The translations under genes and the position numbers were made by a program. A stretch of 64,000 nucleotides of DNA from the NCBI GenBank assembly GCA_005776945.1, contig SXOB01000030.1, positions 1-64,000 on the forward strand, written 5' to 3'. This stretch comes from Pseudomonadota bacterium. Its GTDB lineage: Bacteria; Myxococcota_A; UBA796; GCA-2862545. This document shows, in pieces, positions 1 through 49,653 of the stretch; within the stretch, counting starts at the first letter, position 1, and every line of letters begins with the position of its first letter. The notes beneath the pieces were generated by a model. It made no database searches and was not told the origin of the DNA. It was given only the letters and a program-made list of their open reading frames with translations.

Positions 1-385
1 CGGCGATGCCGAAGCCGTCGTCGTCGAGGTCGTCTTCCATGCCGTCGCAGGCGTGGTCGATGAAGTCGTAGGGGACGTCGGGCGCGCCGGGGTGGATGCT
101 GGCGTCGTTGTCGTTGCAGTCGTCGCCGCCCCAGACCTCGCCGTCGTAGCCGTCGTCGTCGAGGTCGTGGTCTTCGGTGCCGCCCGTCCCTGTGTCCGTC
201 GGATCGGGGGGATCCGTCGGGTCGGTGGGGTCCGTCGGCTCTGTTGGGGGCGAGTCCGAGTCCGTATCCGGGGGGTCTGGGTCGATCGGGATGTCCGTGT
301 CGGTCAGCGAATCCGACTCGGTCGGCACCGTAGTGACGTCGCAGGCGACGAGCGCAAGGGTTCCAAGAAGGGTGCTCAGGCGCAT
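1..385 (-). CDS. MopE-motif lipoprotein, 3' end cut by window edge
   Basis: Only the first 128 codons lie in the window; the gene runs off the left edge. The start ATG at 385-383 opens a lipoprotein signal with Arg2 and a hydrophobic stretch ending LALVAC, so Cys15 would be lipidated. A low-complexity linker rich in Asp, Pro and Thr (PTDPTDPTDPPDPTDTG) follows, then acidic repeats of the MopE type, including GGDDCNDNDASIHPGAPDVP and HACDGMEDDLDDDGFG. In this family the Asp/Cys motifs are thought to bind metal or calcium on the cell surface. It reads leftward, after the operon that ends at 513, but is separated from it by 127 bp holding a strong hairpin, so it is probably transcribed separately. 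The role is unknown beyond surface metal binding. Confidence 0.85.
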   Translation of the reverse strand, partial: MRLSTLLGTLALVACDVTTVPTESDSLTDTDIPIDPDPPDTDSDSPPTEPTDPTDPTDPPDPTDTGTGGTEDHDLDDDGYDGEVWGGDDCNDNDASIHPGAPDVPYDFIDHACDGMEDDLDDDGFGIA

Positions 386-484
386 CGAATCCCCCACGCC
401 GACCTAGCCAGATGCTCGCCGCCGCGCCCGAAGGCGTCAGACGCGACCCAGATCTTGGAGGGCCACCGGCCTTCCAGGCCGTCT

Positions 485-510
485 CCGGCGGACGCCGGGG
501 GTCACCCCGG
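485..510 (-). terminator. overlapping hairpins after the PLD operon
   Basis: Directly after the stop of the PLD nuclease gene (minus strand) two mutually exclusive stems can form: CCGGC/GCCGG (485-489 with 494-498) and CCGGGG/CCCCGG (495-500 with 505-510). There is no T run, so this would be a GC-hairpin terminator or a transcript-end stabiliser. The downstream stem contains a 14-bp sequence also found at the start of the operon. Confidence 0.4.
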
Positions 511-511
511 A
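498..511. repeat. 14-bp operon-flanking repeat, copy 1
   Basis: GGGGTCACCCCGGA at 498-511, just outside the last stop codon of the five-gene operon, is identical to 6262-6275, which touches the first start codon of that operon. The core GGGGT-C-ACCCC is an odd palindrome. Its role is unknown; chance cannot be excluded. Confidence 0.35.
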
Positions 512-512
512 C

Positions 513-2186
513 TCAGAGCGACGCGTTGTCCGTGTCGGGGGTCGCGAGAATCAGGTTCCGCCAATCCTCACGGATGGAACCTTCACCCGACGTCAACGGG
601 CAGCTCGCCCAATTCGCAGGGTCGTCGCCGGGCGCGGATGGGTCGATCCGCTCCATGGAGCGGGCGGCGTTGCCGTCGGGACCCCCCGCAAAGGGCGGGC
701 CGCCGTCGCCTGCCACGTCGATGACGTTGGCCTGCGGGTCGAGGAGACTGAGCTCCAGCGCGTGGTCTTCCAGGTAGAGCCGCAGGCCGCGGTCGTCGTT
801 GAACGGATTGATGACGAGGTCGGCCGTCGTGAGGGCAGAGGTCGCGTCCTGCGGCGCGCCATCCTGGTAGGCTTCGAGGACGTGGTCGGCGACGAGCAGG
901 GTGTCGCCCGCCGGCAGGACAGTGCCCGGCGGAAAGCCGACGACGGTGTCAAAGGGGCTCGAAACCTGCCAAAGGTCCAGAACGAGGTCGCGGTCGGTCA
1001 TGTTCTTGAGTTCGATGAACTCATCGAAGCCTTCGGGGTCTTCAGGGGTCACGCCGTACCAGTGCACTTCGTTGATGACGACGTCGCCAGCCAGGACTTC
1101 GGGGGCGTCCGGCTGGTCACCGGGGACGCGGCCGTTGAACCACAGCGATTCCCACCATGCGGTGGCCAGGCGGGCAGCTTCGCGGTCGTGGACGACGAGC
1201 AGGGTCTCATCGTTGGACTGCGTCGCTGACGCCGACCAGTTGAAGGACCCCGTGATGAGGATCGGCTCTTCACCTTCCGCATCGAGGATGATGGTCTTGG
1301 CGTGTAGCCGGCCGCCGCCGGCCTGGTAGTCGCCGGGCTGGGTGGTGGCGTCGTTGCCGTCGAGTCGGAGCGGGACCTCGCTGCGAAGGAGCCGGTACAC
1401 CTCGGTGAACTGACCGTTGCTGTGCATCTGGGACTGGTCCATGACACCCGCGACGCCCGTGCCCTCTGCGACGGACCCGCCTAGGGCTTCGTGTTGGCGC
1501 ACGAATGCTGAACCGAGCTGGTCCTTCGTGAAGGCGAAAATCGCAAAGCGAACCGACGTTTTCGCGCCGTCGACGAGTTCGAGGATGCGGCCCATCGCGT
1601 CTTCGTTCGGCGAAAACCAGACCTCTACGCTCGCATCGCCGACCGGGTAGGTGCGGCCGTTGTCGAGCGTGATCTTGTCTTGGCCGTAGGCGCCATTCCA
1701 CATTTGTTCGAATTCGGCTGTGAAGTCCGCGGCGACCGGGGGCGAGTCCAGGAACACGAAGTTGTTCGCGTTCTGTTGGAGGTCAGAGTCCGTCCAGTTC
1801 GCCGTGCCCGTGAACACGAACCGGCCGTCGACGACGACGAACTTGTCATGCATGATGTGGGCTGAATTGCCGACGCGAAGGGGCACGTCGCGGTCGTACA
1901 GCGCGGTGTAGCCGGCGTTGTGGATGTGTCCGCCGTCTCCAACCATTCGGACGGGCACACCTCGGTCGTAGGCGCGGATGACGGCGTCGACGAGCGGTTC
2001 GTGGCTGAAGCCCATCACAGCCATGTCGACCGACGCGTCGGCCTGATCGATGAGATCGATCATGAGGCGCACGGCATCGCTTTCCCAGACGGTGTCCAGG
2101 TTGCTTCCGGGGTTGTTGAAGTACACCGAGACGGGGCCTTGGTTGGGGACGTCCGGCGCCGCGCAGGCCAGCCAAAGGGCGATCAT
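513..2186 (-). CDS. PLD-superfamily nuclease/phosphodiesterase lipoprotein with C-terminal lamin-tail domain
   Basis: Last gene of the operon, 557 residues. The ATG at 2186 overlaps the upstream stop (ATGA). The N-terminus MIALWLAC suggests a lipoprotein with a very short signal. Two phospholipase D half-domains follow, each with an HKD motif: HDKFVVVDG with H113 and K115, followed by GTANW; and HAKTIILD with H295 and K297, followed by GSFNWSAS. PLD enzymes join two such motifs into one active site that cleaves phosphodiesters through a phosphohistidine. Residues from about 370 form a lamin-tail beta-sandwich starting VVINEVHWYG and ending near RSMERIDPSAPGDDPANW. LTDs are known to accompany secreted bacterial nucleases. 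The likely role is a surface-anchored nuclease; a phospholipase cannot be excluded from sequence alone. Confidence 0.9.
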   Translation of the reverse strand: MIALWLACAAPDVPNQGPVSVYFNNPGSNLDTVWESDAVRLMIDLIDQADASVDMAVMGFSHEPLVDAVIRAYDRGVPVRMVGDGGHIHNAGYTALYDRDVPLRVGNSAHIMHDKFVVVDGRFVFTGTANWTDSDLQQNANNFVFLDSPPVAADFTAEFEQMWNGAYGQDKITLDNGRTYPVGDASVEVWFSPNEDAMGRILELVDGAKTSVRFAIFAFTKDQLGSAFVRQHEALGGSVAEGTGVAGVMDQSQMHSNGQFTEVYRLLRSEVPLRLDGNDATTQPGDYQAGGGRLHAKTIILDAEGEEPILITGSFNWSASATQSNDETLLVVHDREAARLATAWWESLWFNGRVPGDQPDAPEVLAGDVVINEVHWYGVTPEDPEGFDEFIELKNMTDRDLVLDLWQVSSPFDTVVGFPPGTVLPAGDTLLVADHVLEAYQDGAPQDATSALTTADLVINPFNDDRGLRLYLEDHALELSLLDPQANVIDVAGDGGPPFAGGPDGNAARSMERIDPSAPGDDPANWASCPLTSGEGSIREDWRNLILATPDTDNASL

Positions 2187-3256
2187 GGGGCGTCCTCGGC
2201 GCCGGCGACGATGGTGGCGACCGCGGCTTCGATGGCGTCGAGTGCGGGCGTCCGACCGCCTTGGCCGAGCAAGCCCCAGGCGAGGCCGTCCACGAATTGG
2301 TCGGACGGAATGGCGGCGCCGCCGAAGGTGCGCACGGCGGGTAGTGCGGGGTGGGTCAGCACGAGGGCTCGCGGCCAGGCGCCTCGTGCGCCGGGTGGGA
2401 CCCAGAGGACGGTGGGCAGCGGCTCGGCGACGGTCAGGTGCAGGACGTCGGGGGCGGCGCTGTCCAGCAGGGCGGACAGGCTGGGGACGCGGGTTCCGAA
2501 GCCCGAGCCGGTCACGACGGTGACGCCGAAGCCGGTCTCGGCCTTCTCCTGGAGCGTCAGGATGAGGGCCTCGTCGGCAACGTCGTCCGACAACAGAACG
2601 ATGTCGCCCCGTGCGGCGAAAACCCCGTCGATGAGCCGTTTGACGAGCCGTTCCTGGGGCCCACACCAGAGCTCGAGCAAGCTGCCATCGGGCAGAGGGT
2701 AGGACCAGCGCGGGTCGGCGATGGACTTGTTGAGCGCGTCGTAGGCGTCGGTGCTCGTGGCGTCGACGCCGCCGTGCAGTTGCACGTGTTCGGCTTCGAC
2801 GTCTTGGGCGACGTCTTCGTAGGTCACGTCGATGGCAAGCTGCAGGCCCGTGCCCGTGCCGAGGGCGGTCGCCGCAAACAGGCGCCGGCGATCGACGATG
2901 GCAAAGGCGTCGGACATCACGACGTCCGTGCTGGGCCAAGCGACGTCGGTGTTGAGATCGAAGTCGAAGAGCTCGAGGCCCGCGTCAACCTGGGTGTGGT
3001 CGACGCCTTCGAGCGCCGGGAAGACGACGTCGATGTCGGTGACGAGGCGGACGTCCACGCCGGCCGCGGCGCGATCGGCGAGGGCCAGCGCGACTGTGGT
3101 GTCGTCGGCTGCGGGGAGGGCCGCCCGCACCTCGTAGGTGGCGTCTTCGACGACTTGAGCCGCGGCGGCGTCGACGTCGATGGCGTCGGCGATCAGCAGA
3201 TCGAAGGTCACGGTCGACGTGGTCGGCGCCGTGCACGCGAGGAGAACCCCGATCAT
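2183..3256 (-). CDS. catalytically degenerate PLD-like lipoprotein
   Basis: 357 residues; the ATG at 3256 sits in an ATGA overlap with the LTD gene before it, and its own stop overlaps the next start. The N-terminus MIGVLLAC looks like a short lipoprotein signal. It follows the layout of the downstream PLD enzyme: a Rossmann-like stretch (ADRAAAGVDVRLVTDID), then SDAFAIVDRRRLFAATAL where an active enzyme has HDKFVVVDGRFVFTGTANW. S115 and A117 thus replace the catalytic His and Lys. The second half (GSLLELWCGPQERLVKRLID) matches the start of PLD half two, but no HxK motif follows. I infer a pseudoenzyme, probably a structural or regulatory partner of the active copy. The homology to PLD is my reading of aligned segments, not a database hit. 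Confidence 0.75.
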   Translation of the reverse strand: MIGVLLACTAPTTSTVTFDLLIADAIDVDAAAAQVVEDATYEVRAALPAADDTTVALALADRAAAGVDVRLVTDIDVVFPALEGVDHTQVDAGLELFDFDLNTDVAWPSTDVVMSDAFAIVDRRRLFAATALGTGTGLQLAIDVTYEDVAQDVEAEHVQLHGGVDATSTDAYDALNKSIADPRWSYPLPDGSLLELWCGPQERLVKRLIDGVFAARGDIVLLSDDVADEALILTLQEKAETGFGVTVVTGSGFGTRVPSLSALLDSAAPDVLHLTVAEPLPTVLWVPPGARGAWPRALVLTHPALPAVRTFGGAAIPSDQFVDGLAWGLLGQGGRTPALDAIEAAVATIVAGAEDAP

Positions 3257-3936
3257 TCGAGGCTCCCGGCGGCGAACGCGCCCGCGTAGTCGGGGGAGTT
3301 GGGCCGGCCTGGCGTCGCGCGCGTGGTGGCCCGGCAGTCCACGTGGACGAGGTCGTCGTTGGGAACGTCGACTTCGGCACCGGTCATGAAGTGCCAAGCC
3401 GCTGGGTTGCCGCCGTCGGAACCGAACATGAGCTCGCTGCGCTCCATCGAGCGGCTGAGGGCCCCGTCGTAGCCGCCGGCGAACGGCAGCTGGTCCACGT
3501 CGCCGATCGTCTCAAGCAGTCGTTCGTCTCGGTCGCGCAACGTGAGGGCGAATCCGGCGTCCATAGGCAGCCGGAGGCCGCTGACGACGGTGGCCAGTGG
3601 CAGGCACCCCGTGTTTTTGGCGGCGTAGGCGACGTGCTCCCCTACGTTGATGAGCCGGCCGAGGTCGGGAAGGACCCACGTTTCCTCGATGGGGCCTGTC
3701 AAAGTCAGCCGCCACTGGGACAGGTCGATGGGGCGAACGCCTTCGTTGCGAAGCTCGACGAACACGTCGTCGGCAACCCATACATCGCCCTTCACGGCTC
3801 CAGACCACAAGACCTCGGAGATCTTGATGTTGCCGCGTTCGCCGCTCATCCCTTCCCCCTCCGAGAGGCCATCGCGGAAATCCACGCCCTCGTCGATGGG
3901 CGGGGGCGCGTCACACGCCAGCCACAGGGGGATCAA
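3253..3936 (-). CDS. lamin-tail-domain lipoprotein
   Basis: 227 residues. The likely start is TTG at 3936 inside a TTGA overlap with the barrel gene; translation gives MIPLWLAC, another very short lipoprotein signal with Cys8. After an acidic linker the body is a single lamin-tail domain: IKISEVLWSGA, DVFVELRNEG, PIDLSQWRLTLTG, and a late SRSMERS segment that resembles the one in the LTD of the PLD nuclease two genes on. LTDs are Ig-fold beta-sandwiches often found next to secreted hydrolases and thought to bind nucleic acid, membranes or partner proteins. It has no enzymatic motifs, so I infer an accessory subunit of the surface complex encoded by this operon. Confidence 0.85.
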   Translation of the reverse strand: MIPLWLACDAPPPIDEGVDFRDGLSEGEGMSGERGNIKISEVLWSGAVKGDVWVADDVFVELRNEGVRPIDLSQWRLTLTGPIEETWVLPDLGRLINVGEHVAYAAKNTGCLPLATVVSGLRLPMDAGFALTLRDRDERLLETIGDVDQLPFAGGYDGALSRSMERSELMFGSDGGNPAAWHFMTGAEVDVPNDDLVHVDCRATTRATPGRPNSPDYAGAFAAGSLE

Positions 3937-5453
3937 AAGCGCGTCTCAAGGCCGAGGGACGCGAGCCAAGGCGTCGCGCCGGCCGCGCTGCCGAGCGCGT
4001 CGCCGGCCACGCGGTCGATCGGGGTCTCGTAGAAATTCGCCCCGGCCACCGTGGCGCCCGTGAGCCAGACGTCGACGGGCTCGAAGCGCCAGCCGAGTTG
4101 AAGGTCGATTTCGTGTCCGAGGCTGTCCCCGAGACGCGTTTGCGCTGCGATGCTCTCCCGCGCGATCCCGAACGGGGGCGTGAGGCTCTCGACGTCCGCC
4201 GGGTCGACGAAGGACACGGCGCGGTCGCTGAGGAACCACCAGCTCGCCTTGACGGACGGCCCTTTGGACCAGCGCCAGAGCGCACTTGCATGCAGCGTGC
4301 GGGTGCCCGCCTTGCGCTCCCGGTCCTGAGGGTTGTCCTGAACGCCGCCGACGCCGACGTAGGCCGTGGGATGCAGTCCGAGGAAGCGGTTGAAGATCAC
4401 ACCGCCCGTGTGAGCGCCCTTCATCCCGACGTAGCCGTGGCTGTAGGCGATTCCCTTCGTGTCGAAGGCGCCACCGATCGCGTCGAAGAAAGCGAGGTCG
4501 GCGGCGACGTGGTGATCCTCCCCTGTCGCAAGGCGCGCGCCGCCCCCGAAGGCGACGCCGTTGCAGTCGATGTCCTGGGTCGTCGCCGCCTGACGGTCGA
4601 TGCCGGTCGACGTGTCGAAGGTCAGCCAGGGGCGAACGGGTCCCACTTCGATCGAGGCGCGGAGGCCGGCATTGGCCACCCAGTCGTTGTCCGATGCGTT
4701 GCCGAGCAGGCCGTCGTACGAGATGTCAGAGCCACTTCCGCCCGCACCGACACCCGTGAACGCCCCGTAGGGGGTGAGGTCGAGCTTCGCGGGCAAACCG
4801 TCGAGGCGCACGACGAGGGCATGCCGGTGCGTGACGGTCTTGCCGTCGAAGTCGTAGGTGGGGTCCGTGGACTGGCCCACGAAGGACACGAAGTCGGCGC
4901 CATCAATGTCCGTGCTGCCGGCGACGACGTCGACGGGAATCGCGATCACGGAGCCGAAGTCGCCGAGCGGAATGTCGATGCGGACGGCGTCGATCGTGTC
5001 GGACCAGACGTAGTCTGGCGCACCCTGCAGACCGCCGATGGAAAACGGCATGCGGCCGATCGTGGTCACCACACCCCCATCCGCCGCGGTCCGCAACTCG
5101 AGCGCGAGACGTTGGACGTACAGGAAGCCGCCGAAGGGGTCGACCTTTCCGATCTGGTCGCTGCCCCAAAGACCGCGGTGGCTCGCTGCGACGAGGAGCG
5201 AAGCGTGCGGATGCGGGCGCCAGGCGAGGTCGAGCGCGATGCCGGTCACGGCGAATCGTGCGGCGTCGTCGCTGTCGAGAATGGCCTGGTCGCTGGTGTT
5301 GTCGAGCGGCTTGAAGTCGAGGTCGTTCGATGCGAAGCCCTCCGTGCTGAATGTGGCGTCTACGGTCAGTTCGCCGGGTTCGGCTTCGGCGTCGGCCACG
5401 GTGGTTTCGGCATCTGCCGCGAGGGCGACGGCAGCGAGGAAGAGGGCGGTCAC
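3933..5453 (-). CDS. outer-membrane beta-barrel protein
   Basis: 506 residues, second gene of the operon. The GTG at 5453 overlaps the upstream TGA (GTGA). The signal is short and lacks basic residues: MTALFLAAVALA then AD, a plausible signal peptidase I site. The rest is alternating polar/hydrophobic strands with aromatic girdles and short turns, typical of a porin-like barrel, and ends in ...ASLGLETRF with the terminal Phe recognised by the BAM machinery. There is no plug or TonB box that I can see. Tightly coupled to four surface proteins, it may be a pore, anchor or receptor for the complex. The exact porin family cannot be named from sequence alone. Confidence 0.85.
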   Translation of the reverse strand: MTALFLAAVALAADAETTVADAEAEPGELTVDATFSTEGFASNDLDFKPLDNTSDQAILDSDDAARFAVTGIALDLAWRPHPHASLLVAASHRGLWGSDQIGKVDPFGGFLYVQRLALELRTAADGGVVTTIGRMPFSIGGLQGAPDYVWSDTIDAVRIDIPLGDFGSVIAIPVDVVAGSTDIDGADFVSFVGQSTDPTYDFDGKTVTHRHALVVRLDGLPAKLDLTPYGAFTGVGAGGSGSDISYDGLLGNASDNDWVANAGLRASIEVGPVRPWLTFDTSTGIDRQAATTQDIDCNGVAFGGGARLATGEDHHVAADLAFFDAIGGAFDTKGIAYSHGYVGMKGAHTGGVIFNRFLGLHPTAYVGVGGVQDNPQDRERKAGTRTLHASALWRWSKGPSVKASWWFLSDRAVSFVDPADVESLTPPFGIARESIAAQTRLGDSLGHEIDLQLGWRFEPVDVWLTGATVAGANFYETPIDRVAGDALGSAAGATPWLASLGLETRF

Positions 5454-6262
5454 AGGGTCTCCGCTGGAACGGCGAGTTGGCCAAGGGACATCACCACGAT
5501 CGCGTGGGCGCCGTAGCTGTAGAGGACGGGGCCGGTGACCTGCAGTCGGTCGCCGACGGCCGCGGTGACGCCGCGGCGCGTGAGCTCGACGTCGAGGGTG
5601 ACGACGACGTCGGCCCCCGTGTCGGTGGTCAGGGTCATCTCCCCGAAGCCATCGGGGGCGGCTGAAACCGTCCCCGTGACGCGGACGACGCTGGCGTCGT
5701 GCGAGGCGTCGAGCGGGCCGTCGGCGAGCTCGTAGTAGATTGGAATCGGCGCTTCGACGGAGATCAACTCGAACGTCGAGACGCGGGGCAGGTCGAAGGC
5801 GTTGGCCACGCTGGTGACGTCGATCGTCACCCAACTTCCGGCTGGAAAGGCGGCGAGGCGGGCGTCGCCGAGGACGAAGGTCCCGCCGCTCATGTCCTGA
5901 AGGAAGAAAGAGCCGTAGTATTTCTGGTCGCTCTCGACCTCGGACGAGCCCACGGGGACGCAGCCATCGGCCTTGAAGTAGACGCGCGGCGTCACCGTGA
6001 CGACGCCGGAGAGGGTCGCCGGCAAGTCGGGCGAGATGCCCCAACCGTCGCAGGCCGGCAGCACGGCGTCTGCGGGGAAGGACGTTCCGAAGTCCGGCGC
6101 GATCGGTAAGTCCGCGATGGGGGTGGGTCCGGTGGCGCCGTACGGGACGTCGGTGAACTCCATGGCTTCACTGACGTCGAGGGTCGAACCGTCGCCGAAG
6201 ACGGCGGTGGGGGCGTCGCCTCGCACGTCGACACAGGCGAGGCCGACAAGGGTCGCGAACAG
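5450..6262 (-). CDS. OB-fold-like lipoprotein, first gene of the surface-nuclease operon
   Basis: The frame opens right after a stop at 6268-6266. The only standard start is GTG at 6226, but that would discard an obvious lipoprotein signal. Starting at CTG 6262-6260 gives MFATLVGLAC-VDV (Cys10), in line with every other protein of the operon, so I give 6262 as the likely start (270 residues; 258 from GTG). The body appears to hold two small beta-barrel modules: one around VTVTPRVYFKADG...YYGSFFLQDMSGGTFVLGD, and one around VVRVTGTVSAAPDGFG...VGDRLQVTGPVLYSYG. These resemble the OB-folds attached to secreted nucleases, which often bind single-stranded nucleic acid. The stop overlaps the next start. 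Confidence 0.75.
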   Translation of the reverse strand: MFATLVGLACVDVRGDAPTAVFGDGSTLDVSEAMEFTDVPYGATGPTPIADLPIAPDFGTSFPADAVLPACDGWGISPDLPATLSGVVTVTPRVYFKADGCVPVGSSEVESDQKYYGSFFLQDMSGGTFVLGDARLAAFPAGSWVTIDVTSVANAFDLPRVSTFELISVEAPIPIYYELADGPLDASHDASVVRVTGTVSAAPDGFGEMTLTTDTGADVVVTLDVELTRRGVTAAVGDRLQVTGPVLYSYGAHAIVVMSLGQLAVPAETL

Positions 6263-6275
6263 GGGTCACCCCGGA
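6262..6275. repeat. 14-bp operon-flanking repeat, copy 2
   Basis: Same 14 bases as 498-511, here overlapping the proposed CTG start of the first operon gene. Within the minus-strand transcript it reads TCCGGGGTGACCCC, whose GGGGTGA could also act as the ribosome-binding site for the CTG start, though only 3 nt away. Confidence 0.35.
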
Positions 6276-6303
6276 GGCCGGGCGGGCTAACCCCAACCGG
6301 CCT
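6275..6303 (-). promoter_or_regulatory. inverted repeat in the operon leader
   Basis: A perfect 7-bp inverted repeat, AGGCCGG at 6275-6281 and CCGGCCT at 6297-6303, separated by 15 bases. It lies between the end of the PP2C gene and the operon start, so it could be a leader hairpin, an operator, or part of a terminator. A second small stem, CGCGCC/GGCGCG at 6349-6362, directly follows the PP2C stop codon. No convincing -35/-10 pair was found in the roughly 100 bp between the genes. Confidence 0.35.
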
Positions 6304-6363: not shown

Positions 6364-7839
6364 TCAAACCTCGACGACGAGGAGCGTCACGTTGTCTTTG
6401 CCGCCGCCATGGTGGGCCGCGCGGACGAGTTCGCGCGCCGCGATCCTGGGGTCCGAGTAGGTGTTCAGGATCGACTCCATGTCGCGGTCGTCGACCTCAT
6501 TCCACAGGCCGTCGGAGCAGATCATCAGGCGGTCGCCGGGCAGAAGTTCGACGCGGAACATCTCGGGCTCGACGTCGTGGTCCGTGCCAACGGTCCGCAA
6601 CAGAATGTTCGAGTGGGGATGATGCCGGGCCTCTTCGGCCTTGAGCTTGCCCTTGTCGACCATCTTCTGGACCCAGCTGTGGTCCTTCGTAAGTTGATCG
6701 AGGACGCCGTCGCGCAGCAGGTAGCCGCGGCTGTCGCCAACATTGGCGAGGTAGCCGACACGACCTTCGGCCACGAGCAGGCAGACCATCGTGGTCCCCA
6801 TGTCCGTGCCCTTGGCGTCGGCGTGGTCCTTGACGGCGTTGTTTGCGGCTTGGAAGGCCTCGCGCAGGCGCGTCTCGAGGCCGACGGGGTCGCTGGCCCG
6901 AACCGGACGGAGGCGTTCAACGATGGTCTCGACGGCGAGGGCACTTGCGATCTCGCCGCAGTCGTGGCCCCCCATCCCGTCGGCGACAACGTAGAACTGC
7001 AGCTGCGGCTCGACGTGTAGCCACGACCAGTTGTCCTCGTTGAGCTGCCGCAGCAGGCCTACGTCGGAAAGAACGGCGAGACGCGGCAAATAGGCCCGGT
7101 CCACCCATGCATTGTGGACGCGTTCCATCGCGCGGCCAAACCCCATCGTGTCGTCCCAGCTGCCGCGTTCGGCGTCCAAGAACAGGCGCTGCAGCCCGAT
7201 GGCCTCGGGGTCGCAATAGCGTCGGAGGATTTCCGCGAGGGACGCCAGCGTCGTGACGCGCTGCTCTCGCTCGACCGGGCGACCCACGGAGGCGATGTCG
7301 AGGTCGAACAGTCGCATCGTGCCGTCTTGTGCGACAAGCAGGTTGGCACGCTGGAGGCTGGCGACGGCGATTTCGCGCGTGTGCAAGCGGGCCAAGGCGC
7401 CGAGCGCACGTTGACCGAGGCCGAAGACGCGTCGATTGGGCAGCGGGCTGGCCTCGTCGACCATGAGGCCGTCGCCCAGGTACGGAATCACGCTGTAGAG
7501 CACGTCGGCTTCGACGAACGCAGCGACCGGCGACGCGAGACCCGCGTGGCGCTCGTTGCGAGCGACGAAGTCGAGGTAGGGCTGAAAGCCTTCGACCTTC
7601 CATCGCGCCGACACGAGGAAGCGTCGATCGGTGAGCGGGGCCTTGCACCGAACGCAAGCGCGGGCTGAACGTGGGGACTCGTCGTTGAGGCAAGCCCAAC
7701 ACTTGCGGAGGGTCCGGTCTGGTCGAATGTCGTTCGCCAGGTAGAACATGCGGCCTTCGGTCAGCCGCACAAGGCCCTCGATCGTGAAGTGTTCGCCGAG
7801 CGGGGTGCCCTGAGGCAGATGCATCGGCCGTTCACTCAT
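6364..7839 (-). CDS. PP2C-type Ser/Thr phosphatase with N-terminal zinc-ribbon pseudokinase
   Basis: 491 residues from the ATG at 7839, preceded by GGGAG; GTG 7857 and ATG 7824 are alternatives. The C-terminal half (about 255-491) is a PP2C phosphatase with the expected motifs: NEDNWSW, VADGMGGHDCGE (metal-binding Asp and Gly-Gly), GTTMVCLLV, GDSRGYLLRDG, TKDHSW, CSDGLWNEV and a final DNVTLLVVEV. The first half resembles a protein kinase fold but is catalytically empty: no glycine loop, LQRANLLV in place of the HRD..N loop, and FDLD instead of DFG. A four-Cys ribbon (C47, C50, C62, C65) is inserted near its start. It likely dephosphorylates Ser/Thr targets of kinases such as those at 20420-27102, with the pseudokinase sensing or docking. 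Confidence 0.9.
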   Translation of the reverse strand: MSERPMHLPQGTPLGEHFTIEGLVRLTEGRMFYLANDIRPDRTLRKCWACLNDESPRSARACVRCKAPLTDRRFLVSARWKVEGFQPYLDFVARNERHAGLASPVAAFVEADVLYSVIPYLGDGLMVDEASPLPNRRVFGLGQRALGALARLHTREIAVASLQRANLLVAQDGTMRLFDLDIASVGRPVEREQRVTTLASLAEILRRYCDPEAIGLQRLFLDAERGSWDDTMGFGRAMERVHNAWVDRAYLPRLAVLSDVGLLRQLNEDNWSWLHVEPQLQFYVVADGMGGHDCGEIASALAVETIVERLRPVRASDPVGLETRLREAFQAANNAVKDHADAKGTDMGTTMVCLLVAEGRVGYLANVGDSRGYLLRDGVLDQLTKDHSWVQKMVDKGKLKAEEARHHPHSNILLRTVGTDHDVEPEMFRVELLPGDRLMICSDGLWNEVDDRDMESILNTYSDPRIAARELVRAAHHGGGKDNVTLLVVEV

Positions 7840-7929
7840 CCGGGGTCTCCCGGGCACACGTCACGCGAACGGACGCGCTGCGCAAGGTTTCGTGGGCCTG
7901 CTGACGCCGAGCCCGTCGAGTCGTGGCGT

Positions 7930-17044: not shown

Positions 17045-19261
17045 TCAACGTCGATCTCGGCGTCGCAGGTCCTGCGTGGAACGAACTGTAGGGTCGTGGT
17101 ATTCGTCAGTTTGACGTCCATCAATATTCGAGCGACCTGGAGCCATCGTCCGCCAGGTGAGGTCGTTTGGGACCATGGTCACTTCGATCGTCCCGTCGCG
17201 GTCCGTGCGCAGCACGTGGACGCCCGCCTGGTCGAGCCGGTCCAACACTTCGGCCGTGGGGTGACCGTAGCGATTGGTGCGCCCAACGCCGATCGTCGCG
17301 AGGGCTGGTCGGGTGGCATTCAACAGTTCCGGTCCGGTGGAATGTCGACTTCCGTGGTGCCCGACTTTGAGGAGGTCGATTCTGGGAAGGTCAGGGGCCC
17401 AATGGCGCTCTGTAGTGCTCGGAGCGTCCCCGGTGAGCAAGACGCGAACGCCGCGGCTTTCGATGAGAAGGACGAGGCTGGACTCGTTGGGGTCCTGGCT
17501 GAGGAAGCCTGGCGGCGGCCAAAGGGCGTGTGGGGGGAACAGGACCGAAATGCCGGCTTCGGCCGCCGCTTGCGACAGAGTGTCTATGCGCATCGGATCG
17601 GGGCGCCAGAGCCTCCGGACCTGCAGCGTTTCGATGACGGGATGAAGGCCGCCCTCGTGGTCGCGTTGGGGATGGGTCGCGACGACGGCATCAAGGCGTG
17701 TCAGGCCGCGACGGCGCAGCCATTGGACGACGGCATCGCCGGGAGGACCGCCGTCTACGAGCCAGGTCCGGCCGTCGGCGAACTCGACGGCGACGGCGTC
17801 TCCTTGGCCAACGTCGAACTGGGTGACCCGCAGGCCAGCTGCCAAGCGTGGGCGGGCGCCGAGGCCGAGGAGGGTGAGCCCAAGGGCGAGTATGTGTCGG
17901 CGCGGTGCCCACAGTGGCAACAGCAGGAGGCCCACGCCCCAACCCGACACCGCTGGATGTACAGGCTCCGCTGCGAGCGGCCGGAGGATGGCCAAGAGCA
18001 CGTCCACGCCGGCGCCGGCGAGTCCGGCCATGGCGTCCCCGACGGGGTTGGGGGCGACGCTCGCGGCGGCGGCGGGCACGATCCAAAGGGACGCCAGCGG
18101 CAGGGCGACCAGATTGGCGACGGCTGACGTTGGGGCCAGCTCCTGAAACCACCAGGCCGAAATCGGCAGGGTGCCAAGGGTTGCCCCCGCTGAGACGGCG
18201 AGGGCCTGGATGGGCCAGCGACACCAGAACGGGGTGTCCGGGGGCAGAAAGCGGAGGAGCGCAGGGGTGAGCTGGAGGATTCCGGCGACAGCCGAAAACG
18301 AAAGCTGGAAGGAGGGTGTGCCGAGAACGGCGGGCTCGTTCACGGCCAAAAAGGCGGCCGCAAGGACCAGAACGGTCAGCGGATCGGGTTCGCGTCCGTG
18401 GGACCGGCCGAGGTGAATGACGGCAAAGGTCAGCGCTGCGCGTTGAGCTGTGACCGGGGCCCCGACGGCCCATGCGTAGGCGGCACCGGCGGCAGCGGCC
18501 AGCCAGGCGACAATGGCGGGGGGCACGCCGACTGGCCTCAGAATGGCCAGCGCATGGAGTGGCGCCCGCAGCACGGCGGCCGCAAGGGCCGCGATCGTGG
18601 CGACGTGGAACCCTGAGACCGACAGGAGGTGGGACGTCCCTGTTTTCCGCAGCGTGTCGGTGACGTTGTCGTCCACGTCGGCCCGCCGTCCCGTGAGCAG
18701 AGCCTGCGACAGCGGGTCGAGGTTGGACCCGGTTGAGTGCGCGAGGGGTCGAGGCGGGTCTTCACGGGCGTCGACCCACGTGCGGATGCCGCCGAGGCGC
18801 GCGAGGGCGACAGGGTCGGGGCCACCTGGCAGCGCAGTTCGGGTCCAATTGCGCGCATTCCCCTCGATCCGCAATGAGGCGCCGAGAGCCGGGGCGTAAG
18901 TGGGGAAGCGAACCCGGACGCGTCCCAATTCATGGTGACCGGGCCGATCATCGACGTCGACGTCGGCCTCCCGGCTACCGGCGACGCTGACCACCGTGCC
19001 ATCGAACGCCACGGGGCCCCGCCAGACCGGCCCTTCCACCAAGGCGTCCATCCGCCATTGGCCGAGGGTGGCGCCGAGGAGGCCAAGGTGGACCCAACCG
19101 AGGAAATCCAGCGAGCCGGGTCCTGTACGCCGAATGGCCCACAGAATGGCCAGGACTGTGGCCGCCGCGAGACAGACCGGCCCCGACGCTGGCGAAACCT
19201 GGATGGCCGCGCCGAGGCCCGCGAGGGCGCCGAGCGACAATGGGAGCAGGGGGGAGGCCAT
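17045..19261 (-). CDS. comEC: ComEC/Rec2 DNA-internalisation channel
   Basis: 738 residues from the ATG at 19261 (GTG 19279 possible). ComEC moves single-stranded DNA across the inner membrane during natural transformation. The order of domains fits: N-terminal membrane segments, a DUF4131/OB-like soluble part (about 75-165, VAFDGTVVSVAG...LGASLRIEG), the competence membrane core with LLSVSGFHVATIAALAAAVLRAP and FQLSFSAVAGIL, and a C-terminal metallo-beta-lactamase-like domain. The last has VTQFDVGQGDAVAVEFADG, ATHPQRDHEGG, LLTGDAP and LKVGHHGSRHST, so the putative nuclease metal ligands look intact. No other com or pilus genes are adjacent. The C-terminal tail is basic and extra-long. Confidence 0.95.
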   Translation of the reverse strand: MASPLLPLSLGALAGLGAAIQVSPASGPVCLAAATVLAILWAIRRTGPGSLDFLGWVHLGLLGATLGQWRMDALVEGPVWRGPVAFDGTVVSVAGSREADVDVDDRPGHHELGRVRVRFPTYAPALGASLRIEGNARNWTRTALPGGPDPVALARLGGIRTWVDAREDPPRPLAHSTGSNLDPLSQALLTGRRADVDDNVTDTLRKTGTSHLLSVSGFHVATIAALAAAVLRAPLHALAILRPVGVPPAIVAWLAAAAGAAYAWAVGAPVTAQRAALTFAVIHLGRSHGREPDPLTVLVLAAAFLAVNEPAVLGTPSFQLSFSAVAGILQLTPALLRFLPPDTPFWCRWPIQALAVSAGATLGTLPISAWWFQELAPTSAVANLVALPLASLWIVPAAAASVAPNPVGDAMAGLAGAGVDVLLAILRPLAAEPVHPAVSGWGVGLLLLPLWAPRRHILALGLTLLGLGARPRLAAGLRVTQFDVGQGDAVAVEFADGRTWLVDGGPPGDAVVQWLRRRGLTRLDAVVATHPQRDHEGGLHPVIETLQVRRLWRPDPMRIDTLSQAAAEAGISVLFPPHALWPPPGFLSQDPNESSLVLLIESRGVRVLLTGDAPSTTERHWAPDLPRIDLLKVGHHGSRHSTGPELLNATRPALATIGVGRTNRYGHPTAEVLDRLDQAGVHVLRTDRDGTIEVTMVPNDLTWRTMAPGRSNIDGRQTDEYHDPTVRSTQDLRRRDRR

Positions 19262-19340
19262 GGCGCTCGCCCTCAGCACACTCCGTGCCGGCCTTGGGCG
19301 CGCTTGTTGACGGTGCCGACGGCTGGACTGTCGAGAACGG

Positions 19341-27724: not shown

Positions 27725-30700
27725 ATGATGCGTCGTGCCTTGGTGTGGGCCCTTTCGGGGGTCGCGGTTGGGCTGCCTTCGGCAGCGTACGCCCAGTCAG
27801 TTTTGATTTTCTACGATCAGTATGTTTCGCCCGACATTCCGCCGCTTCAGGCCGCAACGGCGCTGGGGTACACGGCGGTGGCGACGAACAGCGCCAGCAC
27901 GTTCCAGACCCAGTACGACGGGGGCGCTTGGGACCTTGTCGTCGTCGACTCTGCCTACAACTTTATCCCGACCGAGATCCGGAACCGGACGCTGGACCGG
28001 ATCACGGTCGCGAAGCCGCTGATCTTTCACTATTGGAATCTAGACGGGGAGACGGCGGTCAAGTCGGCCTTGGGCGTGACGACGGTCGAGTTCACGACGC
28101 AGCGGAACACGCACAAGTGCACGGCGAGCCCAACGGACCTTCACGGCGGCGTGTCGCCGCTGCCGAACCCGATGCTGTTCAAGTCGCCCGACCCGATCCT
28201 CGACAACGGCGATCAGCTCACGCCCATTGCGGGCGGGACGAAGGTCGACTGCTTCGACAGCGGCGTGGGACCGGGGTCGATTGCCGTCGTCAACGCGGGC
28301 CTGACGATTCTCAATGGCCTGAGCCCCATCGACTACAACGGTCGCGATGGTGACGCTGACGGCACCGACGACATCGTCGAGCTGTACATCAACGAGTACA
28401 CGCTGCTCATCACGCCGTCGCCGGAAGACTGCGACGACACGCTCGACAACGACTTCGACGGGCTGACGGATTGCGCCGACCTGGTCGACTGCGAGTTGGA
28501 CCCCGTTTGTGACGAGGTTTGTGATGACAGCCTCGACAATGACTTCGACGGCGACGTCGACTGCGAAGATCCAGACTGCGTGGGCCAGCCCGAGTGCCTG
28601 GAGGACTGTGACGACGGCGTCGACAACGACTTCGACGGGCTGACGGACTGCCTGGACAGCCTGGACTGCACGACGGATCCGGCGTGTGCCGAGGACTGCA
28701 CGAACTTCCTCGACGACGATGTCGACGGGCTCAAGGACTGCGCCGATCCGGACTGCGCCTTGGATCCCGCGTGTGCGGAAATCTGCGACGACGGGATCGA
28801 CAACGACTTTGATGGGCTCAAGGACTGCGCCGACGGCGACTGTTTCGGCGACCCGGCATGTGGCGAGGATTGTTCCAACGGCGTCGACGACGACTTCGAT
28901 GGCCACAAGGACTGCGCCGACGCCGACTGCGCCGGCGATCCCGCGTGTATGGAGGTCTGTGACGACGGGATCGACAACGACCTAGACGCGATGATCGACT
29001 GCGTCGATGCCGACTGCTGGGAACTCGCGACCTGCTGCGACGACGATCAAGACGGCTTCGTCGATCGTGAGGGCACCTGTGGCGGCGGAGATTGCGACGA
29101 CCGCGTCTTCGACGTCGGAGACTTGGACTTCGACCTCGTGCCCGACACCTGCGACAACTGCGACGCGGCTGCCAATTTCGACCAGGCCGACGCCGACGGA
29201 GACACGGTTGGCGACGCGTGCGACGCCTGCCCGGGTGAGGACGACCTCGACGATGGCGACGGCGACGGCGCGCCCGCGGCGTGCGACAACTGCCCTGTTG
29301 ACCCCAATCCGTCGCAAGCCGATGGCGATGTCGACGGTGTGGGCGACACTTGCGACACGTGTCCAGGCCACGACGACAACGAGGACGGCGACGGAGACGT
29401 GATCGCCGACGGCTGCGACAATTGCATTCTCGACAACAATCCCGATCAGTTCGACGACGACCTCGACGGCGTGGGCGACGTCTGCGACGCGTGCCCCGGC
29501 TTCGACGACAACGATGACGTCGACGTGGATGGCGTGGCCGACGGCTGCGACCTTTGCCCGGAGGTCTCCGACCCCGGCCAGGAAGACGCAGACCTCGACA
29601 CGGTCGGAGATGCCTGCGACGTTTGCCCCGGCGCCGACGACCTCGCCGACATCGACGGCGACAGCGACCCCGACGACTGCGACAACTGCCCGGAAGATCC
29701 GAATCCGTCCCAAGTCGACGTAGACGGTGACGGTGTTGGCAACGTCTGCGACACTTGCAATGGCTTCGACGACCTCGACGATTTCGATGTGGACGGCGTG
29801 GCCGACGGTTGCGACGTGTGCCCCGACGTGGCCGACCCGGGTCAAGAAGACGCCGACCTCGATGGTGTGGGCGACCTCTGCGACGCCTGCCCTGGATTCG
29901 ACGACCTCGACGACGACGACCTGGATGTCGTCCCCAACGACTGCGACAACTGTCCCGACGACGGGAATGCCGACCAGGCGGACGCCGATGCCGACGGCGT
30001 CGGCGACGTGTGTGACGTGTGCCCTGACTCGGACGACTCGCTCGACGAGGACGGGGATGGTCACGTCGACGGTTGTGACAACTGTCCGCTCGACCCGAAT
30101 CCGACCCAGAAGGACGACGATGGCGACTTCGTCGGCAACGCCTGTGACGCGTGCCCGGGAGCCGACGATCTCGCAGACGAGGACGTGGACCTCGTCCCCG
30201 ACGCCTGCGACGTCTGCCCCTCTGTCGCGGACCCCGGCCAAGAGGACGCCGACTTCGACGGGAACGGGGATGCTTGCGACCTTTGCGCCGGGTCGGATGA
30301 CTTCCTCGACCGGGACGGCGACGTCGTCCCCGACGACTGCGACAACTGCGCCGACGACATCAACGCCGATCAGGCCGACGTCGACGTGGACCTCGTGGGC
30401 GACGTGTGCGACGCGTGCCCGGGTTCAGACGATCGGGTGGATGAAGACGCCGACGGCGTCGCCGATGGTTGCGACGCTTGTGTCGGCCACGACGACAACC
30501 TCGACACGGACGTGGACGGGGTGGCCGACGGCTGCGACGGCTGTCCGCTCGATTCCGACCCCGGGCAGGAAGATGCCGACTTGGACGGGGTGGGCGACGC
30601 CTGCGATCGTTGCGTCGGCTCTGACGACCGCGAGGACATCGACGCGGACAGCGCCCCGGACGCGTGTGACAACTGCGCCGATGATGCGAACGCCGACCAA

Positions 30701-33184
30701 GCCGACGAAGACCTCGACGGAAACGGCGACGTTTGCGACGTTTGCCCCGGCTCGGATGACTTCCTCGACGAGGACATCGACACGTTTGCCGATGGCTGCG
30801 ACAACTGCGTCGGTCTGACCAACGACCAGGCCGACGAGGACTTCGACCTCGTTGGTGACGCGTGCGATGTCTGCCCCGGATTCGACGACCTTCAGGACGA
30901 CGACGGCGACACGGTTCCCAACGGGTGCGATGACTGCGTCGGCGACCTGGTGGACGATGACGGCGACGGCGTGGCCAATGCTTGCGACGTCTGTCCAGGC
31001 CACCCCGACGACCTCGACGACGACCTCGATGCCGTCGCTGACGGCTGTGACAATTGTGTGGGCCTCGGCAACGATCAGGCCGACGACGACGCCGACGGCG
31101 CGGGCGACGCCTGCGACCTTTGCCTCGGCGTGGCCGACGACCAGAGCGATGGCGACGGCGACGCCGTTGGCGACGCTTGCGACGTTTGTCCGGCGACGCT
31201 CGATCCGGGTCAGGCCGATGGCGACGGTGACGGCGTGGGCGATGCCTGCGACATCTGCCCGTCGTCGGGCTGCGACACGCCATGTGGCGACGTCGATCTC
31301 GACGGCGACGTGGACGTCTCCGACGTCACCACGTTGGCGACCAAGCTTGCGACGGGCGTTGTCGTCCCGTCAGAGTGCCAGCTTTGGGGTGGCGACCTCG
31401 ATGGCGACGGTTCGGTCACGGCGGCGGACGCTGACTTGTTGGCCGACCACGTCGTTGGCGGGGCCCCCATCGACTGCCGCGACAGCCAGGCCGACACCGA
31501 CGGCGACAGCGTGGGGGACGACTGCGACATCTGTCCCGGCGGGGACGACCGCGCCGAGTCGGACGCCGACGGCGTTCCCGACGATTGTGACGCATGTCCG
31601 GGTGGCGACGACCGTCAGGAGTCGGATGCGGACACAGTTCCCGACGACTGTGACGTCTGCGATGGTGGTGATGACCGCCTCGACGGTGACCTCGACGGAA
31701 TCCCCGACGACTGCGACGATTGTGACGGCACGGCGGATGACGCCGACGGCGACGGTGTCGCCGATCCCTGCGACATCTGCGAGGGCTTCGCCGACGACGT
31801 CGATACCGACCTCGACCTGGTGCCCGACGGCTGCGACGCCTGCGAAGGCTTCGACGACGCCCTGGACACGGACGAAGACGCCATTCCGGACGACTGCGAC
31901 GACTGCATCGCTCCCGATGTCGACTCGGACAGCGACGGGCTGGACGACGACTGCGACCCGTGCCCGGATTTGGCCGATGAGGCCGATTTCGACGGCGATG
32001 GCGCTTTCAGCTGCGATGACTGCGACGACGATGCCCCAGCGCTGCATCCGTTCGACCTCGATGCCGACGGCGTGAGCAGTTGCGACGGCGACTGCCACGA
32101 CGGCGACGCGGAGATCGCGCCGGGCCTGACCGAGCTGGCCAACGGGATCGACGACGACTGCGACGGGGTCGTCGACGAGGGAACCGACCTTGGCGACGGC
32201 GACGGCGACGGCGTGGCCGAAGCGGGCGGGGATTGTAACGACGCCGACCCCGCGATTCACCCCGGCGCCCGAGAGGTGTGCAACGCCAAGGATGACGACT
32301 GCGACGGTGTCGTCGACGAGACCACCGAGTGCTTCGACGACGACCTCGACGGGTTCTGCGAGGGGCCAAACTGCACGGATGGGTCCGATCCGGGTGATTG
32401 TGTGGATTCCAACGTCGCCATCCACCCCGACGCGGAGGAGGTGGCCGACAACGGCATTGACGACGACTGCGACGGCATCGTCGACGACGGCTCACCCGAT
32501 GACGATGGTGACGGCTTTGCCGACACGGTCGACTGCGAACCCGGTGACCCGACGGTGCACGAGGGCGCGCCGGAGTTGGTCGACGGGCTCGACAACGACT
32601 GCGACGGCCAGATCGATGAAGGACGCGACAGCTTTGACGACGACGGTGATGGCCTGAGCGAAGACCTCGGCGACTGCAATGACGCCGACGACAGGGTGTT
32701 CCCGGGCGCCGAGGAGACCGGAAATGGCGTGGACGACGACTGCGACGGCCTCCTGGACGAGGGGACCGACGCAGTCGACGACGATGGCGATGGTCTGACC
32801 GAGGTCGATGGCGACTGCGATGACGACAACGTCGACATCCACCCCGGGGCGCCTGAGCTGCCCAACGGGTTGGACGACGACTGCGACGGGCAGATCGACG
32901 AAGGCACCGACGACCTCGACGCCGACGGATGGACGGTCGAAGCCGGAGACTGCGACGACGAGAACGGTTGGGTGAATCCCGAGCGCCTCGAGGACTGCTA
33001 CGACGGCCTCGACAACAACTGCGACGGCGAGGTCGACTGCGACGACAGTCGGACGCCGGAGGACGAAGAGGAAATCGGGACCTGTGGCTGCCAAGGCGCG
33101 CCCAACCTGCCCTGGCCCGCAGCGATGCTGCTTTGGGCACGGTTGCGCCGTCGCAGCGCATCAGGCGCGCAGGTCCGCGGATAG
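27725..33184 (+). CDS. giant Asp-rich surface protein: MopE, TSP3 and dockerin-like repeats, MYXO-CTERM-like tag
   Basis: 1819 residues; start ATG 27725 or the adjacent 27728. A 24-residue signal ([23 protein letters not shown]) precedes a roughly 200-residue globular domain ([21 protein letters not shown]...) of unknown fold. Then come seven MopE-type units ([18 protein letters not shown]) at about 234-440, some 33 TSP3 calcium units (CDNCPxDxNPxQxDxDxDGVGDxCD) at about 457-1178, and a dockerin-like pair ([36 protein letters not shown]) near 1180-1250. About nine more TSP3-like units and seven or so MopE metal-binding motifs follow. The C-terminus, [15 protein letters not shown] then [13 protein letters not shown], is a Cys-x-Cys/short helix/Arg tag like MYXO-CTERM, implying sorting to the cell surface. 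Likely a calcium-stiffened surface fibre or adhesin. Confidence 0.93.
29095..31262 (+). repeat. tandem TSP3 repeat block in giant protein 1
   Basis: About 33 units, each roughly 20-25 codons, with the pattern CDxCP-x-DD/xN-x-Q-x-D-x-D-x-DG-x-GD/AD. Aligned by eye with the paralogue (about 27 units), this copy carries six extra units near 29281-29700, and those extra units resemble the ones right after them, pointing to internal duplication. Confidence 0.7.
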
Positions 33185-37533: not shown

Positions 37534-40500
37534 ATGCTGCCTCTTTTTCTGCTTCTGGCCTCCCAAGCTTCTGCGGTTGATCTCGTCGTCGACGGAACCA
37601 CAGTTGTGCTGGGCGGCAGCGCGACGTTCGACACCGTCACCATCCGCAACGGCGGGAAGCTCGTCGTGCCTGACTACGTCGGCGTTGCAGGGACGGGGAC
37701 GGTGGAGATCACGGCGACCACGCTGACCCTGGACGCCACGTCTTCCATCGTCGCCACGGGCGCGGGCTATCGCGGGATGACCAACGCGAACGGCGAAGGG
37801 CCCGGCGGTGGGATTGGTGGCGCCTGTTGTCAGGACGGCGGCGGCGGCGGTGGCCACGGCGGACCCGGGGGCCGCGGTTCGGGGGACGGGTGCGTCGGCG
37901 TCGGGCCGCCTGGCGGTCCGGCGGTGCCGGACCTGACGCCCGACATCGCGGACATGGGTTCGGCTGGCGGCGCGGCGGGTAGCGGCGACGGCGACTACGG
38001 CGGTTTGGGTGGGGCGGGCGGCGGCGGGGTGACACTTGTCGCCGACGTCATGGTGATCGCCGGCAACGTCTATGCCGACGGAGATGCCGGCCAGCTCTAC
38101 AACAATGACGCGTCGGGTGGGGGCGCGGGCGGCGGAATCGTCCTGCGGTCCGACGTCCTGACCTGTACCGGTACGTTGTTCGCCCGGGGTGGGTACGGGT
38201 CCATCGCGGACGACGCAGGCGGCGGCGGTGGCGGCGGTATCGTCGAAGTGCATTGGGACACGTCGGGCTCGGCCTGCCCGATCGTCGTCACAGGCGGAGC
38301 GTCGGGTTGCGGGGCCTTGCCCGGCGTGGGCGGTAGCTTGGAAGGCGACGCCGAGGACTTCGACGGCGACGGCTTCACGGCAGGGGACGGCGACTGCGAC
38401 CCCACCGATTTCGATGCCAGCCCGATCGGCGAAGAGGAGTGCCTCGGGGGCATCGACGAGGACTGCGATGGCTTGGTGGACTGCGATGATCCGGACTGCG
38501 GCGGCGCTCCGCTGTGCGGGGAGGTCTGCGACGACGGGATCGACAACGACCTGGACGGGGCCAAAGACTGCGCGGACAGCGACTGCTTCCTCCACCCGTT
38601 CTGCCAGGAGGACTGCTCCAACGGCCTCGATGATGACGTCGACGGCCACAAGGACTGCTTCGATGCCGACTGCATCGGGGACCCGGCGTGCGTCGAAATC
38701 TGCGACGACGGGATCGACAACGACACGGACGGGATGACCGACTGCGTCGACGGCGACTGCTGGAACTTCGAGACCTGCTGCGACGACGACCAGGATGGCT
38801 TCCTCGACCGCGAGGGCATCTGTGGGGGCGGGGATTGCGACGACCGAGCCGTCCATACAGGGGACGTCGACGTCGACCTCGTGCCAGACGCCTGCGACAA
38901 CTGCGAGGTGGACCCGAATTTTGATCAGGCCGACGAAGACGTCGACACGGTTGGAGATGCTTGCGACGCCTGCCCGGGCGTGGACGACCGCGTGGATGCC
39001 GACGCGGACAGTGCTCCCGACGCCTGCGACAACTGCCCGAACGACCCCAACCCATCTCAGCTCGACGTCGATGGCGATGGCGTTGGCAACGTCTGCGACA
39101 CCTGCAACGGATTCGACGACCTTCAGGACATGGACCTCGACCTCGTCCCCGACGGTTGCGACATCTGTCCCGAGATCGCCGACCCGGGCCAGGAAGACGG
39201 GGATTTTGACGGCGTCGGCGACGTCTGTGATGCCTGCCCGGGCTTTGACGATTTCGCCGACGACGACCTCGATGTTGTCCCCGACGCTTGTGACAACTGT
39301 CCCGAGGATGGGAATGCCGACCAGGCCGACGCGGACGGCGACAGCGTGGGCGACGTGTGTGACGAATGTGACGGGGCCGACGATACGGTCGACGAGGACG
39401 TCGACGGACATGCCGACGGCTGCGACAACTGCCCGTCGGACGCGAACCCGAGTCAAAAGGATGACGACGGCGACCTCGTAGGCAACGCGTGCGACGTGTG
39501 CCCAGGCGGCGACGATCTGGCCGACGAGGATCTCGACCTCGTCCCCGACGACTGCGACCTGTGTCCGCTCGACCCGGACCCCGACCAAGACGACGCCGAT
39601 TTCGACGGAAGCGGGGATGCCTGCGACCTCTGTCCGGGCTCCGACGACTTCCTCGACCGCGATGGCGACGTCGTCCCCGACGGCTGCGACAATTGCGCCG
39701 ACGACGCGAATGGCGACCAGGCCGACGCCGACGCCGACACCATCGGCGATGTGTGCGATGCCTGTCCCGGGGCGAGCGACCTCGAAGACGCCGACGCCGA
39801 CGGCACTGCCGATGGCTGCGACGCCTGTCCGGGGCATGACGACGGCCTGGACTTGGACGTCGACGGGGTGGCGGACGGCTGTGACGTGTGCCCTCTCGAC
39901 GCGGATCCGGGCCAGGAGGATGGGGACGGCGACGCCGTTGGCGACGCTTGCGACCGTTGTGTCGGATTCGACGACCTTGCGGATTTCGATGGTGACAGCG
40001 CGCCGGACGCCTGCGACAACTGCACCGACGACGCGAATGCCGATCAGTCCGACGACGACCTCGACGGTCGCGGCGACGTTTGTGACGCTTGTCCGGGCTC
40101 CGATGACTTCGTCGACGAGGACCTCGATGCCTTCGCCGACGGCTGCGACAACTGTCTGGGTCTGGCCAACGACCAGGCCGACGACGACGTCGACCTCGTG
40201 GGCGATGCCTGCGACATCTGCCCCGGGTTCGACGACTTTCAAGACGACGATGGCGACGCGGTCCCTAACGGCTGCGACGACTGTGTCGGCGACCTGGTCG
40301 ACGATGACGCCGACGGCGTCGCCAACGCGTGTGATGTTTGCGCTGGCCACCCCGACGACGTGGACGACGATCTGGATGCCGTGGCCGACGGCTGCGACAA
40401 TTGTGAGGGGACGCCCAACGATCAGGCCGACGGCGACGGAGACGGCGCCGGGGATGCCTGCGACCTCTGCCTTGGCCTCGCCGATGATCAGAGCGACGGA

Positions 40501-49173: not shown

Positions 49174-49653
49174 TCAAGGGCAGGTGTCGACCACACGCCG
49201 GCAAACGGTGGGGTCGTGATCGTGGGCCTCGGTGACGACGATCACCAGGCCACCGCCGGGCGCGTCGCACCCCCCGCATTCGGAGCCGTCGGAAAAGCGA
49301 GCCTCCAGGTGGACCGTCCCCTCCACGTCGAACAGGCCGTGCCCGTCGAAGACGGCATCGCAGGTGTCCCCGACGTACCAGGCCGCCAGGGCCATCTGAA
49401 GGGTGAAGTCCGGCGCTGGCAACGTGATGCCAAGGCCGGTCATGAGTTCCTCCCAACCGGTGTCGTTGCGGACGATCTTGGAAGGCAGGAACGCGACGGC
49501 GTCGGTGAAGTAGTGGTGGTCGGTGGCTGCGAGCACTTCGTGTTCGACCTCCGGGGCCAACACGAGGGACGGGCAGGTGCCCGACACGTCCTCGTGCAGG
49601 CCAGGGTCCGTTTCGGGGGAGGCGCAGGCGAGGGCAAACAGCAACGGCGACAT
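49174..49653 (-). CDS. small lipoprotein of unknown function
   Basis: 159 residues from the ATG at 49653. N-terminus MSPLLFALAC (Cys10) with no basic residue. The mature protein has Cys pairs (SGTCPSLVL, DTCDAVFDG, SECGGCDAPGGG, TVCRRVVDTCP) that suggest disulfides, and many His/Asp (ATDHHYFTDAVAF, EAHDHDPTVC), which could bind metal, but no family is recognised. It is divergent from the large Ig/LTD protein at 49797; the 143 bp between them presumably hold both promoters. I found no clear -35/-10 pair there. Confidence 0.75.
   Translation of the reverse strand: MSPLLFALACASPETDPGLHEDVSGTCPSLVLAPEVEHEVLAATDHHYFTDAVAFLPSKIVRNDTGWEELMTGLGITLPAPDFTLQMALAAWYVGDTCDAVFDGHGLFDVEGTVHLEARFSDGSECGGCDAPGGGLVIVVTEAHDHDPTVCRRVVDTCP

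Follow-up and report, generated by a model that had tools for sequence, protein, structure and literature searches.

A conserved Myxococcota gene block that probably encodes an undescribed surface device for nucleic acids or a similar polymer

Several described systems combine domains of the kind considered here, each sharing part of the logic and none having the full set. In the secreted nuclease ExeM, a single chain carries a lamin-tail domain (LTD), two putative OB folds within one region, and a nuclease domain (PMC6085458). ExeM of Shewanella and Xds of Vibrio resemble our locus in being exported and in uniting an LTD, two OB-like domains and a nuclease domain, but they are single chains with an EEP nuclease, without a PLD domain, a dead PLD, a barrel of their own or a set of lipoproteins. 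The marine DNA-degradation loci of Ca. Izemoplasma also unite nuclease, nucleic-acid-binding and lamin-tail domains at a single locus that serves growth on extracellular DNA, but as a single protein beside transporters (a 1,049-aa chain with nucleic-acid-binding, nuclease and LTD domains), and no barrel was found in their description (PMC8289736). NucT of Helicobacter pylori and Nuc of Salmonella are nucleases of the HKD type within the PLD superfamily, each a single small domain acting as a dimer; NucT is membrane-associated and implicated in purine salvage, and the description consulted reports no LTD, OB or barrel partners for it (PMC5714352). Finally, the alginate exporter AlgE (Alginate_exp, PF13372; PMC4118822) is an 18-strand barrel.

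To our knowledge, the passage of large nucleic acids or their fragments across the outer membrane as nutrients, and the use of prey DNA and RNA by predators among the Myxococcota, are poorly understood. Here we describe a minus-strand operon of five genes at positions 513-6262 of the window, by which we mean the whole 64,000-nucleotide stretch of contig SXOB01000030.1 that was analysed. It encodes four lipoproteins and one outer-membrane barrel, with the LTD, OB and nuclease modules on separate genes and a PLD, not an EEP domain, as the nuclease; the one-chain combination of LTD, OB and EEP nuclease was not found here. The original prediction had called the set a candidate new module, and we found no published description of it in the literature searched, which included few subscription journals. 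These bacteria thus probably carry an undescribed surface device for nucleic acids or a similar polymer, since the conserved block encodes a predicted barrel together with lipoproteins of nucleic-acid-binding and nuclease-type folds.

Gene layout and protein folds

The genes and the main motifs of the last one are as follows.

5450-6262, minus strand: G1, lipoprotein with two OB folds, lipobox LFATLVGLAC
3933-5453, minus strand: G2, predicted outer-membrane beta-barrel, AlgE-like, about 18 long strands, C-terminal Phe
3253-3936, minus strand: G3, lipoprotein with an LTD
2183-3256, minus strand: G4, lipoprotein with a PLD fold predicted to be catalytically dead (HKD motif absent)
513-2186, minus strand: G5, lipoprotein with tandem PLD domains and a C-terminal LTD
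1797-1850, minus strand: HKD motif 1 of G5, HDKFVVVDGRFVFTGTAN, with H113, K115, D120 and N130 invariant in 24/24
1239-1304, minus strand: HKD motif 2 of G5, HAKTIILDAEGEEPILITGSFN, with H295, K297, D302 and N316 invariant in 24/24
708-1091, minus strand: LTD of G5, residues 366-493, from Pfam

The five frames lie where the original prediction had placed them, and the four junctions are the 4-bp overlaps it had read (GTGA, TTGA, ATGA and ATGA), an arrangement of start and stop codons that is common in bacteria. The N-terminal lipoprotein signals are very short in G3 (MIPLWLAC), G4 (MIGVLLAC) and G5 (MIALWLAC). In G1, ATG, GTG and TTG are absent in frame ahead of the lipobox and an in-frame TGA lies just upstream, at 6268-6266, so that translation probably starts at CTG 6262, or else the run of C at 6265-6262 reflects a mistake in the assembly or a genuine shift; the start listed by the program, GTG 6226, would drop the lipoprotein signal. 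Scans for sigma-70 promoters and terminators gave no more matches than chance, and no Rfam RNA was found in the window. Ultra-short signal peptides, with 7-10 residues before the Cys and often without Lys or Arg, occur in many lipoproteins of the window, also outside the operon (e.g., 43650-46984, 49177-49653 and 63092-64000), and are shared by the sister genome (L048), while other families have signals of ordinary length.

The OB-fold, outer-membrane barrel, LTD and PLD identities, originally read from the letters and their translations, are borne out by Pfam, AF2 models and Foldseek. The model of G1 (pLDDT 88.6) has two OB folds and matches RPA, SSB and HIN domains in Foldseek (E 6e-5 to 1e-3), and its homologues match DUF5818 (19/22), DUF5689 (7/22) and the OB family 'tRNA_anti-codon' (2/22) in Pfam. 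G1 is thus, by its model, an OB-fold protein, and a putative nucleic-acid binder, as the fold alone does not fix the ligand. The model of G2 (pLDDT 75, pTM 0.79) has 18 long strands, and its 17 best solved matches in Foldseek are all AlgE (E from 4e-17), which places it among the predicted 18-strand barrels of the AlgE type, at 12% identity to AlgE. The only Pfam family that it matches is Alginate_exp, found weakly in 8 of 24 homologues (best 5e-7); the window protein itself has no Pfam match, Pfam missing the barrel on single window proteins and homologue alignments being required, and a sequence search of the PDB with G2 gave no match. The C-terminal Phe is present in 23 of 26 homologues, and Arg93, Arg134, Arg210 and Arg265 are invariant inside the strands. 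A basic pore lumen was considered and rejected, the conserved charges in the strands being balanced at 5 basic versus 6 acidic.

G3 matches the Pfam LTD with an E-value of 3e-6, below the curated cut-off, aligns to the LTD of G5 with an hhalign probability of 99.4% and has weak lamin matches in the PDB. G4 aligns to G5 equally well (hhalign 99.4%), and PLDc_2 is found in all 25 of its homologues searched with Pfam. The superfamily motif HxK(x)4D(x)6GSxN, which occurs twice per active site, is carried by G5 and not by G4, in which HxK is absent from all 26 near homologues and no HxK..D motif was found in the distant copies. The PLD-like character first ascribed to G4 therefore holds for its fold and not for a second enzyme; G4 is predicted to be a conserved pseudo-enzyme, and, taken as a pair, G3 and G4 resemble an inactive copy of G5 divided over two genes, with the same domain set.

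G5 itself matches PLDc_2 over two stretches (7e-42) and LTD (6e-10) in Pfam, and MitoPLD/Zucchini (1e-18), Nuc (5e-17) and NucT (1e-14) in the PDB. Its best NCBIfam match is NucT (4e-18), while the lipid-acting PLD and cardiolipin synthase models, at 0.016 and 0.12 (0.016 for cardiolipin synthase), are far weaker than NucT or DrmC. Sequence comparison thus places G5, as had been supposed, closer to the Nuc/NucT/Zucchini nuclease subfamily than to lipid-acting PLDs, though it is not NucT itself, scoring 65.6 of the 297 bits of the equivalog cut-off, far below it. Our genome encodes a second two-domain PLD, at G000:C24:12324-13475 (L079), which adjoins a sulfatase and has neither an LTD match nor operon partners; similar stand-alone PLDs are found in many relatives.

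Conservation and genomic neighbourhood

The original prediction had named conservation of the gene order outside this strain as its test. We found the order G1-G2-G3-G4-G5, in one direction and up to the contig ends, in each of the 24 near and 20 distant loci, the latter from four other Myxococcota families, and this conserved order is the strongest test against chance for the operon. Full-length G5 is present in 28 of the 59 genomes searched (our own and 58 relatives); within the family, only G011 lacks it. A profile search with G2 recovered the same 28 genomes of the order, as well as 61 of the 379 sampled across the phylum, and none of the 8 from elsewhere in the class. Among the 58 genomes of the order searched for both, G2 and full-length G5 are both present in 28 and both absent in 30. 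The G5 tree sets the two large groups apart and tracks family labels, with 9 label changes against a minimum of 8; this indicates that the module is ancient, passed on mostly by vertical descent and lost in places.

The tight coupling of the genes is conserved only partly. By automatic start calls, junctions of <=0 bp occur in about 15 of 26 cases for G2-G3, about 15 of 26 for G3-G4 and about 13 of 26 for G4-G5, but in only 4 of 23 for G1-G2, which is otherwise up to 322 bp long. The proposal that translational coupling fixes the ratio of the products is thus not supported, G1-G2 being mostly uncoupled in relatives. In one of these (L051, genome G019) about 2.7 kb are inserted between G1 and G2 (L051 3018-5743), a stretch that encodes a small exported-looking protein and, on the opposite strand, a MopE-repeat protein.

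The recurrent order supports the five-gene set as first described, but most relatives hold a sixth gene, for an OB-fold lipoprotein, that is missing from this genus. This gene, G0, encodes a family of lipoproteins with a low-complexity tether rich in Asp/Thr, Asn or Glu/Gly and an OB-like domain, is distantly related to G1 (hhalign 98.2%) and is found in 33 of 44 related loci, usually directly upstream of G1. Our own genome has no copy, and none lies beside the operon of the sister genome (L048). The ancestral set thus probably comprised six genes and the window shows a reduced one. Across the set the folds come in pairs, OB in G0 and G1, PLD in G4 (dead) and G5 (live), and LTD in G3 and at the end of G5, plus one barrel.

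A pattern scan of 84,980 genomes, the one search that covered taxa outside the Myxococcota, returned a single full-length close relative (L034; its genome is G007) and one Spirochaete PLD-LTD protein; it missed copies of the Bradymonas type. The Spirochaete protein (L035 69-1979) is 27% identical and shows that the PLD-LTD fusion exists outside the Myxococcota; the other operon genes are absent from the piece fetched. One Bradymonadaceae-type genome has, downstream of the operon, an open frame of 1069 aa with two PLD domains (L128 8210-11416).

In the flanks of the 44 loci we found no conserved polymer-synthesis, transporter or nucleotide-metabolism gene. Otherwise just one neighbour recurs, a PP2C-type phosphatase, present in 11 loci of the same family and located at 6364-7857 (minus strand) in the window; it runs in the same direction as the operon here and divergently in relatives, and may be a regulator or merely an old neighbour. 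Purine auxotrophy was considered as a reason for keeping the operon and rejected, PurH being present in 24 of 28 genomes with it and 30 of 35 without.

Function and competing explanations

Our preferred reading, which we hold tentatively and rate a little short of an even chance, is that the operon encodes an envelope machine with which Myxococcota capture nucleic acid at the outer membrane and cut it there, next to a pore of the polyanion type. The lipoproteins G1 and, where present, G0 would hold the strand through their OB folds, G3 and G4 would form a non-catalytic platform, G5 would cut phosphodiesters via a phosphohistidine intermediate, and G2, as an 18-strand AlgE-like barrel, would pass the resulting oligomers, most likely inwards, where they could supply phosphorus, nitrogen and carbon, for example from lysed prey or sediment DNA. 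The putative complex would sit at the cell surface next to the barrel, with a function that is probably nutritional. This reading draws on the conserved order, the co-occurrence of G2 and full-length G5, the agreement of the G5 tree with family taxonomy, the nuclease-like G5 with intact HKD motifs that G4 lacks, the match of the G1 OB folds to RPA, SSB and HIN domains and the AlgE-like G2 with its invariant Arg residues, as well as on the precedent of ExeM and the marine DNA-degradation locus, which combine LTD, nucleic-acid-binding or OB-like and nuclease domains. A more far-reaching version, which we consider unlikely, sees a new machine, a surface nucleic-acid degradosome with its own barrel, in which the OB-fold lipoproteins and the dead PLD would hold the strand and the tandem PLD would cut it, the fragments entering through a pore of the AlgE type with neither TonB nor type IV pili involved, and which would be ancestral to several Myxococcota families, including predators.

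Several observations count against a nucleic-acid function. All five proteins are net acidic, at -6 to -8 per 100 aa, which is unusual for nucleic-acid binders, though other exported proteins in the window are no less acidic. The balanced charges in the barrel strands give no sign of a basic pore, AlgE itself is an exporter, and the presence of the LTD in other surface proteins, the lack of a conserved transporter, phosphatase or nucleotide gene in the flanks and the retention of PurH in carriers also weigh against the reading. The acidity of the lipoproteins and the wide spread of the LTD among surface proteins here would instead suit an exporter or matrix module, in which the barrel exports an acidic polymer that the lipoproteins bind or trim at the surface, and AlgE is both the closest solved fold of G2 and the source of its sole Pfam match. 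We nevertheless judge this explanation improbable, since alginate genes are absent beside G2, the 44 loci show no conserved polymer-synthesis gene beside the operon, and this explanation leaves the OB folds and the two intact nuclease-type HKD motifs unexplained. Somewhat less probable still is a surface phospholipase or phosphodiesterase directed against prey membranes or a glycan that contains phosphodiesters: lipid enzymes are found within the PLD superfamily, G5 matches MitoPLD, which is annotated as a cardiolipin hydrolase, and some carriers apparently belong to a predatory family, but the NCBIfam scores given above favour the nucleases, and the OB folds and the conserved dead PLD better fit a polymer.

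That the lipoproteins might protect the cell, cutting phage or other foreign DNA or trimming extracellular DNA of its own biofilm without any uptake, is compatible with all of them and with the match of G5 to the model of the DISARM protein DrmC; yet it does not account for the obligate barrel partner, and vertical inheritance over families is unlike that of mobile defence systems, so that we regard it as very unlikely. Least likely of all, and in our view barely tenable, is a role in natural transformation, as a DNA receptor feeding comEC. The original prediction had drawn attention to comEC, which lies 11 kb from the operon, at 17048-19279 in the window, and NucT affects transformation in H. 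pylori (PMC5714352). However, none of the 44 related loci has comEC in its flanks, and the gene is as frequent in genomes without the operon (30/35) as in those with it (25/28); its proximity in the window is coincidental.

Should the nucleic-acid reading prove true, it would assign a function to six hypothetical protein families and provide an instance of a conserved pseudo-PLD beside an active relative, and the module would be categorically new if the barrel proves to pass nucleic acid. The pairing of nuclease-type lipoproteins with a dedicated barrel makes the passage of nutrient nucleic acid testable genetically in cultured relatives.

Four lamin-tail domains and a weak Kelch match are also found in a 1648-aa protein of the window (49704-54647, plus strand), so the LTD is not specific to the nuclease-like protein here. 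Two giant, extremely acidic proteins with a net charge of about -29 per 100 aa lie at 27725-33184 and 37534-42528 (both plus strand), the former with thrombospondin type 3 repeats and the latter with seven MopE metal-binding repeats, and a gene cut at 2-397 (minus strand) also has a MopE motif.
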